DNA of 6,839 bases. Source: an uncultured Ruminococcus sp. (GTDB lineage: Bacteria > Bacillota > Clostridia > Oscillospirales > Acutalibacteraceae). The stretch is taken from assembly GCA_902773265.1 (NCBI GenBank), contig CACYDZ010000215.1, forward strand, positions 1-6,839, in the 5' to 3' direction. Below the pieces are notes generated by a model. That model was not told where the DNA came from and did not search any database. It saw only the letters and a list, made by a program, of their open reading frames with translations. Positions 1-6,839 of the stretch are shown piece by piece (position 1 is the first letter of the stretch; each line of letters opens with the position of its first letter). The position numbers were made by a program, and so were the translations under genes.

Positions 1-150
1 ACCAGACGGTTTATTGAAGCTATCCGTATTGACAACGAAATCAGAAAAATAAAGGGATTGCCGATACAGAAGTATGACACACACCGGCAAAGAGCTTATC
101 TTGAATATCCTGACGGGAGAAGAGAATATTTTGGAAACAACATATCGTAA
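1..150 (+). CDS. 3' end of a small hypothetical protein, likely partner of the zeta-like gene
   Basis: The window opens inside this gene. Frame 1 is open from base 1 and gives 49 residues before a TAA at 148-150; the start lies outside the window. The visible C-terminus is charged and helix-prone (RRFIEAIRIDNEIRKIKG), then has a short, probably beta segment with AYLEYPDGRREYF, and ends in GNNIS. I recall small proteins with this kind of ending just upstream of short zeta-toxin-family kinases in Clostridia, where they are plausible antitoxin or partner candidates. That role is inference from position only. The gene overlaps the next one by 20 bases if the latter starts at the TTG at 131, which fits translational coupling. 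No catalytic motif is visible. Confidence is high that the frame is coding and low for the function. Confidence 0.6.
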   Translation, partial: TRRFIEAIRIDNEIRKIKGLPIQKYDTHRQRAYLEYPDGRREYFGNNIS

Positions 151-702
151 ACCTGAACTGATAATTTTTGCCGACCCTAATGGCAGCGGAAAATCTACTA
201 TCACTAAAATGGCTAAGACTGTCGGTAAATATATCAATGCTGACGAAATCAAAAAGACGATTTTTTGTACTGACCTTGAGGCAGCTCAAATTGCTGAAAA
301 ATTAAGAAATTCGTCAATAGATAAGCATGAAGAATTTACTTTTGAGACAGTGCTTTCCACACCACGAAACCTGAATTTGTTGAAAAGAGCAAAGGAAGAG
401 GGATATTTTATAAGAGGAATTTATGTATTGACAGCTAATCCTTATATCAATGTGGCAAGAGTGAAAGCAAGGGTAAGTTTTGGCGGTCATGATGTACCCG
501 AAGAGAAAATTTTAAGTCGTTATGACCGTGCCTTAGAATTAATTCCGCATTTGTTGAAGTATGTGATGTTGTGCATATTTACGATAATACTGTTTCTCCG
601 TTCAGAATATTCAAAAAGCGTAAAGATGTTTATTATCGGTGGCAGAACGAGTTTTGGAGTAACCGGAGAATTGAAGAATTAACAGGCGTTACTGATTTCT
701 GA
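131..702 (+). pseudogene. Zeta-toxin-like P-loop kinase, frameshifted and with altered Walker A
   Basis: This resembles the short (about 190 residue) zeta-toxin-family kinases, whose classical members phosphorylate UDP-activated sugars. Seen directly: the P-loop LIIFADPNGSGKST (residues 10-23), NADEIK (36-41), FTFETVLST, then GYFIRGIYVLTANPYIN and RVKARV-FGGHDVPEEKI. After LELIPHLL the reading frame turns into unrelated hydrophobic sequence and stops at 680-682. From base 559, frame +1 instead reads VCDVVHIYDNTVSPF, RIFKKRKDVYYRWQNEFW and RRIEELTGVTDF, ending at TGA 700-702. This is a convincing family C-terminus, so one base (probably a G near 557) has been lost. The first Gly of Walker A is also Asp (GAC at 173-175), which should impair ATP binding. 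Start: TTG at 131 is preferred because GGGAGAAGAG (115-124) precedes it and the family begins just before the P-loop. The upstream ATG at 74 has no ribosome site at the right distance. A sequencing error could explain the frameshift but is less likely to explain both lesions. Confidence 0.8.
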
Positions 703-859: not shown

Positions 860-2857
860 ATGGATTATGTAACGGAAAACAGACATCTGCAACTGTTTGG
901 CAGTGGAGAAGATATTACAGCTTATGAATATATGGGCGTTCATAAAGTAGATGACGGAAATTGTTATGTATTCAGGGTATGGACACCGAATGCGGTAGCG
1001 GTATCGGTTATAGGAAAGTTCAATGGCTGGAACGAAAATGCCAACCATATGTCAAGGATAGGCAACGGTGATGTATGGGAATGTTATATCAACGGTGTCA
1101 ATGAATTTGATGCCTACAAGTACTGTATTGTCACGCAGAACTATGAACGCTTATATAAATCAGACCCTTATGCGTTTCACTTTGAAACAAGACCTGATAA
1201 TGCCAGTCTTGTCTATACGATTGAGGGATTTGAGTGGAATGACGAAAAGTGGGTAACGCAGAGAACACAAACCACAATCAGCAATCAGCCGATGAATATT
1301 TATGAAATTCACGCAGGTTCGTGGAGGAAATATCAGGACGGAAATTTCTACAACTATCGCAGACTGGCAGACGAATTAATCCCATATGTTATGGATATGG
1401 GCTATACACATATCGAATTAATGCCGGTTATGGAATATCCTTTTGACGGTTCGTGGGGATATCAGCCGACAGGTTACTATGCACCTACTTCACGATACGG
1501 TCAGCCGAAAGACTTCATGTATTTTATCGACAAGTGTCACCAGAACAATATTGGTGTGATTATGGACTGGTCAATCACAAACTTTCCGAAAGACGATTAC
1601 GCTTTGAAATGTTTTGACGGTACTTGCTGTTACGAATATCACGACCCCCTGAAAGCCAACAGGGAAGATACGGACACGCTTGTTTTTGACTATGCCAGAT
1701 ATGAAGTCATCAGTTTTCTGTTATCGAGTGCGGTATTCTGGGTGGACAAATATCATATAGACGGGTTGAGGCTTGATAATATTGCGTCTATGCTCTATCT
1801 TGACTACAACAAGTCGGGAAAAGCGTCAGCAGTGAACAAATTCGGCGGAAAAGAAAATCTGGAAGCGGTAGCCTTTGTGCAAAAATTCAATACAGTCATT
1901 CATGACAATTTCAAAGGCGTTATCACGATTGCGGAGGAATCTACCGCATGGCCGATGATATCCAAACCTGTCAAAGAGGGTGGTTTAGGCTTTGACTTCA
2001 AATGGAATGTAGGCTGGGTGAACGATATGCTGAATTATATAGCGATTGACCCGTTTTACCGTCCGTTCAACCACGCAAGCCTGATATTTTCTTTGCAGTA
2101 TGCGTTTATGGAAAATTTTGTGTTACCGCTCTCTCATAACATAGTTATCAGCGGTAAGAAATCGTTGTTGAGTAAAATGCCCGGAGATAATGACAGTCAG
2201 TTTGACCATGTGAAAACATTCATGGCATATATGATGATGCATCCCGGTAAGAAACTTACTTTTATGGGCAACGAAATCGGACAGACAGAAGAATGGAATA
2301 CAGATTCCCAACTGTCTTGGGAAGAAGTGCAGTATCCCAAAAACGGAAAATTACATTATTTTATCAAATGTTTAAATAAATTTTATCAGAACAATCCATG
2401 TATGTATGAGATTGAAAATTCGAGAGAAGGATTTCACTGGATACATCATGATGATTTTACACAGTGTATTATGGCATTCCGCAGAATGGATAAACATGGT
2501 GACGGAATTATTGCCTTGTGTAATTTTCTCCCCATCAAGCGAGAAAACTACAGTATAGGTGTTCCCTACAAAGGAATATACGGCGAAATATTCAACACAG
2601 ACAGCACCGAATTTGGCGGTAAAGGTATTACCAACGGCACCGAAATTCTGTCGGTTGATACGCCTATGCACGGTTATGACAAAAGCATTGTTCTGAGTAT
2701 TCCGCCGTTATCGGTGATGTATTTTAAATGTCATAAGAAATACAGTGATATTGATATTAAGTCCATAGAAATTTCCGAACAGGATAAGGAAACGATTGAC
2801 AAAATTCAGGAACTCAACAAGAAAATTGCTGTTATGACAGAAAACGAAAACTCCTGA
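860..2857 (+). CDS. glgB: GlgB-family 1,4-alpha-glucan branching enzyme homologue with substituted active site
   Basis: This is a 665-residue member of the glycogen branching enzyme family (GH13), which normally cuts alpha-1,4 chains and re-attaches them as alpha-1,6 branches. Start: ATG at 860, with AGAAAGGA at 842-849. The frame is open back to 797 but that lies inside the promoter. Domains: N-terminal CBM48-like module (about 35-115, FRVWTPNAVAVSVIGKFNGW); catalytic barrel with YEIHAGSW and PFDGSWGYQPTGYYAPTSRYG; C-terminal beta domain to about 623; then a charged tail of about 42 residues. Of the seven invariant residues (E. coli D335, H340, R403, D405, E458, H525, D526), D236, R304, nucleophile D306, E359 and H426 are kept. 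The region I His is Asn241 (DWSITNF) and the region IV Asp is Asn427 (LSHNIVISGK). Other conserved positions near the active site also differ. The open frame and preserved scaffold argue for a maintained protein, but its branching activity is doubtful. Family assignment is sure; catalytic function is not. Confidence 0.9.
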   Translation: MDYVTENRHLQLFGSGEDITAYEYMGVHKVDDGNCYVFRVWTPNAVAVSVIGKFNGWNENANHMSRIGNGDVWECYINGVNEFDAYKYCIVTQNYERLYKSDPYAFHFETRPDNASLVYTIEGFEWNDEKWVTQRTQTTISNQPMNIYEIHAGSWRKYQDGNFYNYRRLADELIPYVMDMGYTHIELMPVMEYPFDGSWGYQPTGYYAPTSRYGQPKDFMYFIDKCHQNNIGVIMDWSITNFPKDDYALKCFDGTCCYEYHDPLKANREDTDTLVFDYARYEVISFLLSSAVFWVDKYHIDGLRLDNIASMLYLDYNKSGKASAVNKFGGKENLEAVAFVQKFNTVIHDNFKGVITIAEESTAWPMISKPVKEGGLGFDFKWNVGWVNDMLNYIAIDPFYRPFNHASLIFSLQYAFMENFVLPLSHNIVISGKKSLLSKMPGDNDSQFDHVKTFMAYMMMHPGKKLTFMGNEIGQTEEWNTDSQLSWEEVQYPKNGKLHYFIKCLNKFYQNNPCMYEIENSREGFHWIHHDDFTQCIMAFRRMDKHGDGIIALCNFLPIKRENYSIGVPYKGIYGEIFNTDSTEFGGKGITNGTEILSVDTPMHGYDKSIVLSIPPLSVMYFKCHKKYSDIDIKSIEISEQDKETIDKIQELNKKIAVMTENENS

Positions 2858-3208: not shown

Positions 3209-4426
3209 ATGTATCCAAAACAAAAAACAGTGGCAATGATACTGGCAGGCGGTCAGGGCAGTCGTCTTGGCGTGCTGACAAGAAAATTAGCGAAACCTGC
3301 CGTACCATTCGGAGGAAAATATAGAATTATTGACTTTCCGCTGTCAAACTGTGTCAATTCGGGCATTAAGGCAGTAGGTGTCCTGACACAATATCAGCCG
3401 TTGGTACTCAATGAGTATATCGGCAACGGTCAGCCATGGGATTTGGACGGTACTTATGAAGGTGTAACCTGTTTAAGTCCTTATCAGCAGATGGACGGTG
3501 CATACTGGTATTCGGGAACAGCTAACGCTATCTACCGCAATATCAACTTTATCGAAAGATATGACCCTGAATATGTCGTTGTCCTGTCAGGTGACCACAT
3601 TTACAAGATGGACTACTCCAAAATGATTAAACAGCACAAGAAAACGAATGCTGCTTGTACGATTGCTGTCATTGAAGTTTCTAAAGAAGAAGCATCAAGA
3701 TTTGGTATTCTGAACACCAATCCCGACGGTTCTATCTACGAATTTGAGGAGAAACCCGCACACCCGAAAAGCACCAATGCGTCTATGGGTATCTATGTAT
3801 TCAGCTGGAATAAACTGAGAAAATACCTTGAGGCTGATGCTGCTGACGAAAAATCCAGCAACGATTTCGGTAAAGATGTTCTTCCCGCCATGCTGAATGC
3901 AGGTGAAAGAATGTTCGCCTATGCGTTTGACGGTTACTGGAAAGATGTCGGTACTATCGACAGTCTTTGGGATGCCAATATGGATTTACTCAACCCGAAT
4001 GTTCCCATTGACCTTAGCGGTGAAAAAGACAAGATTTATTCCCGCAACCCTGTTATGCACCCGCAGTATATCGGCGAAAATGCCAACATTCAGAACTCAC
4101 TTGTTGCTGACGGTTGTGAAATTGATGGTAATTTGGAATTTTCCGTACTCTTTCCCGGCGTAAAAATCGGCACAGGAGCAACCATTACAGATTCTATTCT
4201 CATGCCCGGAGCAGTTGTTGAGGACGGTGCAACCATAGAATATTCCATTATTGCCGAAAATGCGGTTATCCGTAAAAATGCCCATGTCGGAGCAAAACCC
4301 GAAGAGTTCGACAATCGTGATGAATGGGGAGTTGCTGTTATCGGAGAGGGTGTAAATGTAGCAGAGGGTTGCAGTGTAGCCCCTAAAGCGATGATTGATA
4401 CAGATGTAACGGGAGGTAATCAGTAA
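3209..4426 (+). CDS. glgC: Glucose-1-phosphate adenylyltransferase, catalytic subunit (ADP-glucose pyrophosphorylase)
   Basis: Makes ADP-glucose and pyrophosphate from ATP and glucose-1-phosphate, the committed step of bacterial glycogen synthesis, in the cytoplasm. The 405-residue protein is of normal length. Seen: nucleotide-binding loop [10 protein letters not shown] (12-21), [19 protein letters not shown] (29-47), the catalytic-site stretch [10 protein letters not shown] (127-136) with D129 at the catalytic Asp position of E. coli GlgC, FEEKP (179-183) with K182 at the sugar-phosphate Lys, and [10 protein letters not shown]-terminal left-handed beta-helix region of hexapeptide-like repeats runs from about 285 to the end. 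All catalytic residues look intact, so this is the active subunit of the pair with GlgD. The start is set by AAGGAGG (3191-3197), 11 bases ahead of the ATG. The stop overlaps the glgD ATG by one base (TAATG), implying coupled translation and paired production. Confidence 0.96.
4411..4416 (+). promoter_or_regulatory. glgD ribosome binding site inside glgC
   Basis: GGGAGG lies within the last codons of glgC, nine bases before the glgD ATG at 4426. It fixes the glgD start and supports translational coupling across the TAATG junction. Confidence 0.8.
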
Positions 4427-5541
4427 TGAAAAACAATGTACTTGGTCTTGTGTTCGGTAACAACCATGCCGACAGAATAGAATCCCTTACTTCACACCGT
4501 GCAGTTGCATCTGTTCCTTTCGGCGGTAAGTATCGGCTGATAGATTTTACTTTATCCAACATGACAAACAGTGGTGTACGCAATATTGGTATTATCGTCA
4601 ATAAGAACTTCTTTTCTCTGATGGACCATGTCGGTTCAGGTAAGAGCTGGGATTTGTCCAGAAAAAATGGCGGTGTTCATCTGTTACCGCCGTATATCCA
4701 GTCAGGAAGAGGAATGGGCAGTTCTGAAATTGAAGCCATTTACGCTATCGAGCGTTTTCTTCATGATTCCAATGAAGAATATGTTCTGCTGTGTGAATGT
4801 GGTATGGTAGCCAACATTGATTTTGAACCCATGATACAACAGCATGCAGATACCGAAGCAGATTTTACGGTTATGTATGTCAACAATCTGGACAGTGAGG
4901 GCAGAAAAGACGCATTGTCGATGAAAATGAACTCTGAAAACAGAGTGGAAGAATTTTCCATTGTACCGTGTGCAAAATCAGGTGAAAATGTTACTGTCGG
5001 AGCTATTCTGACCAACAAGAAATTGCTGATGAAAGTAGTTGAAGAATGTATCAGTACCAACAAACTCAACTATATGAAAGATGTACTCCAGTCTGAAGTC
5101 CAGAAATACAGATGTTTCGGCTATCATTTTAACGGCTATTATTCCTTGATTTCGTCACAGGAAGAATATTTCTATGCCAACATGAGCCTTCTCAAAAAAG
5201 AAAACCGTCAGGCATTATTCAACGATACAAAACCTATCTACACCAAAGTTCGTGACGATATGCCCAGCCGTTACGGTTTAGGGTCATCAGTCAAGAACTC
5301 TCTCATCGCACAGGGCTGTATCATTGAGGGTGAAGTCGAAAACAGTATTATTGCCAAAGGAGTAACCATAGGCAAAGGGGCAAAAGTCAGCAACTGTATC
5401 ATCATGCAGGATACAAAAGTCGGCGATAACGCTACTCTCGGTTATGTTATCGCTGATAAAGATGTTGTCATCAAGGACAACAGAACATTATTCGGTTATG
5501 ACACATTCCCTATTTACATTCCCAGTGAAAAAGTGTTATAA
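4426..5541 (+). CDS. glgD: GlgD, non-catalytic regulatory subunit of ADP-glucose pyrophosphorylase
   Basis: A 371-residue paralogue of the upstream GlgC. It keeps the fold signature ([20 protein letters not shown], about 24-43), the DHVGSGKSWDLSRKNGGVHL block and a C-terminal hexapeptide-repeat domain (about 280-355). It lacks the catalytic features: the glycine-rich GGxGxRL loop is replaced by LVFGNNHADRI, and the [10 protein letters not shown] motif by CECGMVANIDF, so the catalytic Asp is gone. In characterised Firmicutes systems such as Geobacillus, GlgD is poorly or not active alone but forms a complex with GlgC and raises its activity. The same role is inferred here. It is one base into the glgC stop codon and 36 bases ahead of glgA, so it is co-transcribed with both. 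The loss of catalytic motifs is a family trait and not local decay. Confidence 0.93.
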   Translation: MKNNVLGLVFGNNHADRIESLTSHRAVASVPFGGKYRLIDFTLSNMTNSGVRNIGIIVNKNFFSLMDHVGSGKSWDLSRKNGGVHLLPPYIQSGRGMGSSEIEAIYAIERFLHDSNEEYVLLCECGMVANIDFEPMIQQHADTEADFTVMYVNNLDSEGRKDALSMKMNSENRVEEFSIVPCAKSGENVTVGAILTNKKLLMKVVEECISTNKLNYMKDVLQSEVQKYRCFGYHFNGYYSLISSQEEYFYANMSLLKKENRQALFNDTKPIYTKVRDDMPSRYGLGSSVKNSLIAQGCIIEGEVENSIIAKGVTIGKGAKVSNCIIMQDTKVGDNATLGYVIADKDVVIKDNRTLFGYDTFPIYIPSEKVL

Positions 5542-5577: not shown

Positions 5578-6839
5578 ATGAAAATTCTTTATTGTACAAG
5601 TGAAGCGAACCCCTATGCAGGTTCAGGCGGACTTGCTGATGTTGCGGCTTCCTTACCGAAAACACTCAGACAGCGTGGTGTGGATTGTCGTGTAGTTATG
5701 CCTTTGTACGGCGATATTCCGCAGTATCTCAGAGATGGTATCAACTACATTACCAATTTCACTGTTCCTGTATCATGGAGAAGACAGTATTGCGGTCTTT
5801 TCTGGGCTCAGTATGACGGTGTGACATTCTACTTTATCGACAATGAGTACTACTTCAAAAGAAAAGGTCTGTACGGTTTCTATGATGATGCAGAGAGATT
5901 TGCCTTTTTCTCCAGAGCTATCATGGAAATGTTGCCTTATATTGATTTCCACCCCGACCTTATCCACACCAATGACTGGCAGACCGCTTTAGTACCTACT
6001 TACTACTATTTCTTCTATTCCAAACTCCCTTGGTATCAGAATATCAAGAGTTTGTATACTATTCACAATATTCAGTATCAGGGTATGTATGGCTGGGATG
6101 TCAATAAAGAATGTGTAGGACTTCCGGCTGACTGTACCCAAATGATTGAAATGGACGGCAAACTTAATATGTCCAAAGGTGCTATCGAAACTTCTACCAG
6201 AGTTTCTACCGTAAGCCCGTCCTATGCCAACGAAATCCTTGACCCTTGGTTCTCACACGGTCTTGACCAGATTCTCAAACACCGTGCCTATAAACTTTGC
6301 GGTATTCTCAACGGTATCGACAACGACAGCTATAATCCCGCAACAGATATGCATATGTATGCTCACTATACCCCCGAATATCCGCAGGGCAAAGCGGAAT
6401 GTAAACGCAGATTGCAGGAAAGATTAAATCTTCCTCAGCGTGGCGATATTCCGATGATTGCTATGGTAACAAGACTTGTCAGCCATAAAGGACTGGATTT
6501 GGTCAAGGGCGGTATTGAAGAAATCATCTATCATAATGATGTACAGTTTGTTGTTCTGGGTTCAGGCGATAAGGAATATGAAGATTATTTCTGGTATCTC
6601 AACAACAAATATAAGGGCAAAGTCTGTTTCTGTCCGGGATTTGTTCCCGAGCTGGCAAGAAAGATTTATGCAGGGTCTGACATATTCCTTATGCCGTCAA
6701 AGAGTGAACCTTGCGGACTTTCTCAGATGATTGCTTTGCGTTACGGCAGTATTCCTGTTGTCAGAGAGGTTGGTGGTCTCAGGGATTCCATTCACGACAG
6801 TCAGGACGGTTTTGGTAACGGCTTTACTTTCAAGAACTA
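5578..6839 (+). CDS. glgA: Glycogen synthase (ADP-glucose type, GT5), 3' end outside the window
   Basis: Transfers glucose from ADP-glucose to the end of an alpha-1,4-glucan. The frame is open for 420 codons and runs off the window edge; the family is usually about 475-490 residues, so some 60 residues are missing. Seen in order: N-terminal MKILYCTSEANPYAGSGGLADV, HTNDWQTALVP (130-140), TIHNIQYQGMY (161-171), VSTVSPSYANEI (209-220), GILNGIDNDSYNP (242-254), MVTRLVSHKGLDLV (296-309) with R299 and K304 at the ADP-phosphate-binding positions, and PSKSEPCGLSQM (373-384) with E377 aligned to E. coli Glu377. One oddity is that the usual KTGGL near the N-terminus is GSGGL, so E. coli Lys15 is Gly15 here. 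The two-domain GT-B fold is otherwise complete up to the cut. It receives its substrate from GlgC/GlgD encoded just upstream. Confidence 0.95.
   Translation, partial: MKILYCTSEANPYAGSGGLADVAASLPKTLRQRGVDCRVVMPLYGDIPQYLRDGINYITNFTVPVSWRRQYCGLFWAQYDGVTFYFIDNEYYFKRKGLYGFYDDAERFAFFSRAIMEMLPYIDFHPDLIHTNDWQTALVPTYYYFFYSKLPWYQNIKSLYTIHNIQYQGMYGWDVNKECVGLPADCTQMIEMDGKLNMSKGAIETSTRVSTVSPSYANEILDPWFSHGLDQILKHRAYKLCGILNGIDNDSYNPATDMHMYAHYTPEYPQGKAECKRRLQERLNLPQRGDIPMIAMVTRLVSHKGLDLVKGGIEEIIYHNDVQFVVLGSGDKEYEDYFWYLNNKYKGKVCFCPGFVPELARKIYAGSDIFLMPSKSEPCGLSQMIALRYGSIPVVREVGGLRDSIHDSQDGFGNGFTFKN

Follow-up and report, generated by a model that had tools for sequence, protein, structure and literature searches.

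With moderate confidence, the branching-enzyme homologue encoded in the glg operon of an uncultured Ruminococcus sp. can be viewed as a paralogue held by selection that likely no longer branches and would instead bind glucan as a partner of the proteins that make glycogen, with branching left to a second GlgB. The window, as the whole stretch of DNA analysed is called here, is 6,839 nucleotides long and is contig C215 of a draft genome (1.79 Mb, 388 contigs, 76.8% complete). Its glg genes lie in the order glgB, glgC, glgD, glgA, all on the + strand: the glgB-like gene (860..2857; 665 aa), whose likely non-catalytic product has a CBM48, a GH13 barrel and a C-terminal beta domain; glgC (3209..4426; 405 aa) for the catalytic subunit of ADP-glucose pyrophosphorylase; glgD (4426..5541; 371 aa) for a GlgC paralogue; and glgA (5578..6837) for glycogen synthase, of which the contig covers the first 420 codons before ending. 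Relative to the window's own GlgC, GGQGSRL has become NNHADRI in GlgD and SGDHIYKMD has become ECGMVANID; absence of the GGxGxRL nucleotide and GDH motifs is the pattern expected of what would be a non-catalytic subunit. On the 5′ side of the operon an ORF at 74-682 (+) has a weak Zeta_toxin domain (residues 23-154 of 202, 32.7 bits with a cut-off of 22.3), and an Rfam scan of the window gave nothing at the gathering threshold.

The preliminary description had the glgB-like frame as undisrupted and its scaffold as family-like, and both points are borne out. From the ATG at 860 the frame is stop-free for its 665 aa, PF02922 (CBM48), PF00128 (GH13 catalytic) and PF02806 (C-terminal all-beta) each score above their Pfam cut-offs, the NCBIfam GlgB model NF008967 gives 829.6 bits (cut-off 577), and the fold predicted by AlphaFold is intact, with 626 residues aligning to 5gqu at 1.8 Å. 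Assignment to the isoamylase/GlgX type (GH13_11, of which we take GlgX to be a member), and so to the ISA2 family itself, was considered and rejected: against TIGR02100, the model for GlgX debranching enzymes, the protein scores 47.3 bits, far below the cut-off of 640.9, and the best families are GlgB equivalogs.

It is in the active site that the protein departs from its family. With E. coli numbering counted on an alignment to 4lpc_A (offset of 116 from the chain range), Y300, D335, H340, H525 and D526 are window residues 201, 236, 241, 426 and 427. Within what we take to be the GlgB catalytic set (Y300, D335, H340, R403, D405, E458, H525 and D526 in E. coli numbering), six of the eight positions are kept, and H340 and D526 are both Asn. 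Tyr201 (TAT, 1460..1462, +) is retained. Region I, DWSITNF (1565..1585, +), starts at residue 236 (D236, GAC) and has Asn241 (AAC, 1580-1582) for the His; region II, DGLRLDNIA (1760..1786, +), retains Arg304 and the nucleophile Asp306 (GAT), with Ala307 changed to Asn; region III, AEEST (1931..1945, +), retains the acid/base Glu359 (GAG); and region IV, LSHNIVISGK (2129..2158, +), which starts at residue 424, retains His426 and has Asn427 (AAC, 2138-2140, +) for the Asp, followed by Ile for Glu428. Both replacements, their equivalence to E. coli His340 and Asp526, and the persistence of D306, E359, R304, D236 and H426 are thus as first described. In GH13 chemistry the region IV Asp stabilises the transition state and the nucleophile forms the intermediate. 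Because of that role of the region IV Asp, and because the plant homologue MKIP1, considered below, is without activity, the window protein is likely inactive as judged from its sequence. AlphaFold confidence falls below 50 at 195-204, 268-270 and 427-432; in a canonical control, P0020 (same 60 rows), none falls below 50 there, yet it shows a similar dip in the loop that corresponds to 195-204 (block means of 54 and 65 vs 48 and 67 for the window protein), and low predicted confidence at the cleft is a weak sign.

How unusual such replacements are was gauged by alignment to GlgB sequences, a check proposed in the preliminary description, using 232 reading frames, duplicates included (some loci hold the same gene). 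The region I His is absent from all 28 rows with at least 67.9% identity to the window protein; among the other 204, all of less than 63% identity, both His and Asp are kept in 202, His being absent only from L050 and L074, of a parallel group dealt with below, and Asp from none. These 204 rows provide the fair count, as the 202 ‘canonical’ rows were chosen by catalytic residues and those columns are conserved in them by construction. Position 206, which is non-catalytic, differs in seven of the 202 otherwise canonical rows. Every Asn-type row is altered at 13 more near-invariant columns, and the altered columns in these rows include V238S, P239I/V, W271T/N, A307N, W323S and E428I/M/T. In clade I, made up of the window protein and its close relatives, the altered near-invariant columns are not significantly clustered in GH13 motifs (6/15, p 0.16), nor is there significant preferential loss of catalytic columns (p 0.21). 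For clade II, the parallel group, 5/7 altered columns are in GH13 motifs (p 0.013); its p of 0.006 for preferential loss counted Tyr201, replaced by Phe in 108 of the 122 rows of that clade, below the 90% rule, and so is not relied upon.

Relatives were sought in 60 genomes (the source genome and 59 others), of which 49 had a match, some solely to distant GH13 proteins. The preliminary description had looked to sister species, where orthologues with His and Asp in place would speak for recent decay or error. What was found is that all six sampled genomes of the genus have a GlgB of the window type from which the region I His is missing, the Asp also being gone in three: Gln stands at the His position with Asp kept in G001, G004 and G005, Asn at both positions in G000 and G002, and Asn with Ser in G003. 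No stops occur inside the match in any of the six, and within the clade identity to the window protein ranges from 68 to 100%. In four of the genomes (that of the window, G001, G004 and G005) glgC, glgD and glgA adjoin the gene, and in G002 and G003 the contig stops after glgB. The nearest canonical relatives, G025, P0019 and P0020, have the full catalytic set. Nesting of the Asn group within clade I (support 99 in one tree, and 100 in another, there beside a Gln lineage with 93) suggests that His was lost first and Asp later. The His to Gln proteins, those of half the sampled genus, may be active.

A search for a second, canonical GlgB, also proposed at the outset, found one. Contig C280 of the same genome has a GlgB frame of 808 codons in which the motifs read DWVPAHF, RVDAV and LSHDEVVYGK; none of the other glg genes turned up on its 13 kb. 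The idea that the operon GlgB is the sole GlgB of a genome that has lost branching was accordingly dropped. Another GlgB is present in all six genus genomes, in one of them partly seen. Orthologues of the C280 protein are complete and canonical at all eight positions in five (the source genome, G001, G002, G004 and G005), with no glg neighbours in the latter four within the fetched 10 kb. In G003 there are two pieces on short contigs, canonical (RDEHD) over the stretch from R304 to D427 that they cover, the His position being outside coverage. An ORF adjoining the second GlgB (L001, 502-978, − strand) resembles by eye a transposase fragment.

Where it can be estimated, dN/dS for the operon GlgB, a measurement likewise suggested beforehand, is about 0.07-0.12, which is purifying selection. 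Pairwise values are 0.071 to 0.088 (NG86) and 0.069 to 0.118 (YN00) for the pairs whose dS could be used, 4 of 15, dS being saturated in the other 11. For the second GlgB they are 0.040 to 0.074 (NG86) and 0.060 to 0.089 (YN00) for the 4 of 15 pairs usable by both methods, two of which rest on the G003 fragment. The values are mostly higher for the operon GlgB than for its canonical paralogue, as with the pair G000-G002 by NG86 (0.088 vs 0.045). Among pairs separated by 0.05 to 0.25 in GlgC, median divergence of GlgB relative to GlgC is 2.39 for clade I (6 pairs), 2.94 for clade II (77 pairs) and 1.96 for canonical proteins (128 pairs). The operon GlgB is constrained, yet somewhat faster than its canonical counterparts, and given the higher dN/dS and the mildly raised divergence, part of this could be relaxed constraint.

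A wide parallel, as read from the protein sequences, is offered by the Ruminococcus bromii group, in a second genus of the same family. In L050 (Ruminococcus sp. HAN027) and L074 (UBA7075) the nucleophile Asp is Gly and the region I His is Asn; both genes are beside glgC, glgD and glgA, and a canonical GlgB is elsewhere in the same genomes. A survey of 398 family genomes with exact patterns, no mismatch being allowed so that its counts are lower bounds, found the Asn form in GlgB of at least five genomes (G000, G002, G003, G287 and G345) and the Gln form in at least three (G001, G004 and G005); the further hits L148 (Asn type) and L151, L152, L156 and L157 (Gln type) had no match to GlgB and were dropped. 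G287 and G345 have Gly at the nucleophile too, plus a canonical second GlgB. With the L050 GlgB as query, the best 120 of 7952 relatives, a ranking by similarity and not a prevalence, all lack the nucleophile (119 Gly, 1 Ser). Among the nucleophile-less matches listed is P0227, named Ruminococcus bromii (640 aa), which is above the NCBIfam equivalog cut-offs despite its loss. The most degenerate active site among the matches listed is that of P0196, also of clade II, with Ser at the nucleophile and in region I, and Gln at the acid/base. Genomes G456 (L169) and G455 (L170) have nucleophile-less GlgB 94-95% identical to P0227 and beside glgC, with a canonical GlgB elsewhere in both, that of G456 being cut by contig ends. 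Five other positions of the clade II site are well kept (in 48 thinned rows D236 47, R304 46, E359 46, H426 48 and D427 48), and with its nucleophile lost the clade II protein is almost surely inactive.

Copy number was followed in the genus of G287, from which 60 genomes of a larger group were sampled, 59 having GlgB at E 1e-60 or better; many are incomplete and the copy numbers are lower bounds. A nucleophile-less, His-less GlgB is present in 15 of the 59, each of which also has a canonical GlgB (that of G474 read from two fragments), and 29 show one GlgB, canonical at the positions covered, so that loss is seen in 15/15 with a canonical copy vs 0/29 single-copy genomes (Fisher p 6e-6, kinship uncorrected). 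The nucleophile-less gene adjoins glgC in 12 of the 15, that is wherever the flank was seen, the stretches from G453, G473 and G474 being too short. A further 15 of the 59 have two GlgB genes, each with canonical residues wherever it could be read; some of the copies in these single-copy and two-copy genomes are fragments. Such a state could be the stage preceding loss in one copy, and its occurrence in 15 genomes means that a second copy does not force loss. The 15 are G214 (L210 and L250) and 14 others of genus g97; G389 likewise has two canonical GlgB. In G479 the non-catalytic position 206 is Met, and by its coordinates G424 looks like a second entry for the assembly G061.

Did inactivation arise once or twice? 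Trees separate clades I and II and parsimony counts two changes; a single clade was not rejected by the AU test in either of two analyses (p 0.075 and 0.144). The inactivating changes differ: some clade I proteins have lost the region IV Asp, those of clade II the nucleophile and, in 108 of 122 rows, Tyr201 as well. Having two groups with different inactivating changes makes convergence testable.

For the window protein the scheme we favor has branching lost via replacement of the His in region I and the Asp in region IV, the second GlgB with its complete active site doing the branching, and the operon GlgB being kept as a glucan-binding partner of glycogen-making proteins, much as ISA2 is to ISA1 and GlgD to GlgC. 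A CBM48 that is still intact, a place in the operon and continued purifying selection together point to a role in glycogen making via binding of glucan and not its cutting. Binding is suggested by what the protein retains: CBM48, the C-terminal domain and the other active-site residues. Its operon neighbours GlgC, GlgD and GlgA, together with the ISA1/ISA2 and GlgC/GlgD precedents, suggest that it may act as a partner or regulator, and first guesses for the protein contacted would be the second GlgB or GlgA. The maintained pseudoenzyme of the preliminary description is supported to this extent, with loss of the His in all six sampled genomes of the genus, purifying selection and a canonical second copy arguing for it.

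The same features bear on other explanations. As D306, E359, R304, H426, D236 and Y201 are kept in 15/15 thinned clade I rows, a changed activity also fits, such as slow hydrolysis, disproportionation or transfer onto some special acceptor in a cleft rebuilt around Asn241, Asn307 and Asn427, and the replacements V238S, P239I/V and A307N and those of W271, W323 and E428, being common to the clade, are in keeping with such rebuilding. We think this unlikely, though deserving of serious thought: MKIP1 with the same region IV Asp to Asn change is described in PMC13172542 as without branching activity, though it has other losses too, and the parallel group shows that the same gene position tolerates loss of catalysis. 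That the protein is instead an ordinary branching enzyme of lower efficiency in which the replacements are tolerated would agree with its high NCBIfam and Pfam scores as GlgB; it is improbable in the face of Asp being lost in none of the 204 outside rows and His in the two of the parallel group only, and of the other canonical GlgB in every genus genome, one seen in part.

Decay after duplication, with the frame open only through recent origin, would account for dN/dS being mostly above that of the second copy and for the long stem at the base of clade I (0.51 changes per column). It is a shade less probable again, as all six genomes are stop-free, dN/dS is about 0.1 and the clade spans 68 to 100% identity; neither disrupted copies in the six genus genomes nor a dN/dS near 1 in the estimable pairs was found. 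A draft genome of 388 contigs and 76.8% completeness naturally raises the thought of assembly or sequencing error, but separate assemblies, among them L033 at 91% identity, carry the replacements too. Together with the absence of the His from all six sampled genus genomes and the low dN/dS, this makes error scarcely credible and led us to set it, and fresh decay, aside.

The selected, glucan-binding paralogue is thus the reading carried forward. A bolder generalization, which we offer tentatively and would not be surprised to see fail, is that in Ruminococcus-like bacteria, R. bromii included, the glg-operon GlgB has repeatedly become a dead glucan-holding subunit once a second GlgB was present; the operon would then encode two dead partners, GlgD with GlgC and the operon GlgB with the second GlgB, the latter a bacterial counterpart of ISA2 tuning glycogen architecture without catalysis. 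There is a practical side. Annotation models label both the window protein and P0227 as active GlgB, and with equivalog scores above cut-off, models of rumen and gut glycogen may assign branching to the wrong gene. A literature search covering mainly open-access papers, at the level of listings and passages, found no report of dead GlgB paralogues in these bacteria. What is described here is a conserved, probably non-catalytic branching-enzyme paralogue; the pairing of dead beside live is itself already known.

Against GlgB proper (NF008967, TIGR01515) the operon protein has the same CBM48, GH13 barrel and C-terminal domain at full length, the same operon position and the same fold, and differs in being without the region I His, the region IV Asp and the 13 further near-invariant residues. 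Several known systems share part of its character. As given in PMC13172542, MKIP1, a class III branching enzyme of land plants, lacks branching activity and has N682, the counterpart of Asn427, beside a retained H681; its second triad Asp is also changed (H558), it is ~30% identical to canonical enzymes, some 150 residues are inserted behind its CBM, and it functions in intron splicing. The operon GlgB has no insertion of this type: most of its length pairs with canonical GlgB proteins that are 53-62% identical to it, and its gene remains among the other glg genes. Criblamydiaceae and Waddliaceae have, according to PMC11046441, a glgA-glgB fusion whose branching-enzyme domain is reported inactive, a bacterial case like the present one in that respect; it came with rearrangement and loss of glgC and glgP, whereas the operon GlgB is free-standing, altered by point replacements and beside glgC, glgD and glgA. 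R. bromii Amy13 (CBM48-GH13, 639-641 aa in strains from humans, with glycogen as its presumed function) resembles P0227 in size and domains, the features by which they are likened, and the passages of PMC5814915 on it do not mention lost catalytic residues. Nearest at hand is GlgD, in Firmicutes a dead GlgC paralogue that modulates GlgC in a partnership known experimentally (PMC9093745); it is a non-catalytic paralogue within the same operon, though of other fold and reaction. ISA2, in PMC12510319, is a non-catalytic plant isoamylase paralogue. ISA1 reportedly binds it, and it has persisted from the last shared ancestor of green plants and algae onwards, for a reason described as not understood. 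Like it, the operon GlgB is a long-conserved GH13 paralogue with catalytic residues lost beside a live paralogue (His in 6/6 genus genomes and Asp in 3/6, with nucleophile and His in 15/15 of the parallel group); ISA2 differs in being an isoamylase whose complex with its live paralogue is shown, that of the operon GlgB being a guess. If these proteins are dead partners, they provide a bacterial test of why selection keeps a non-catalytic glucan enzyme.
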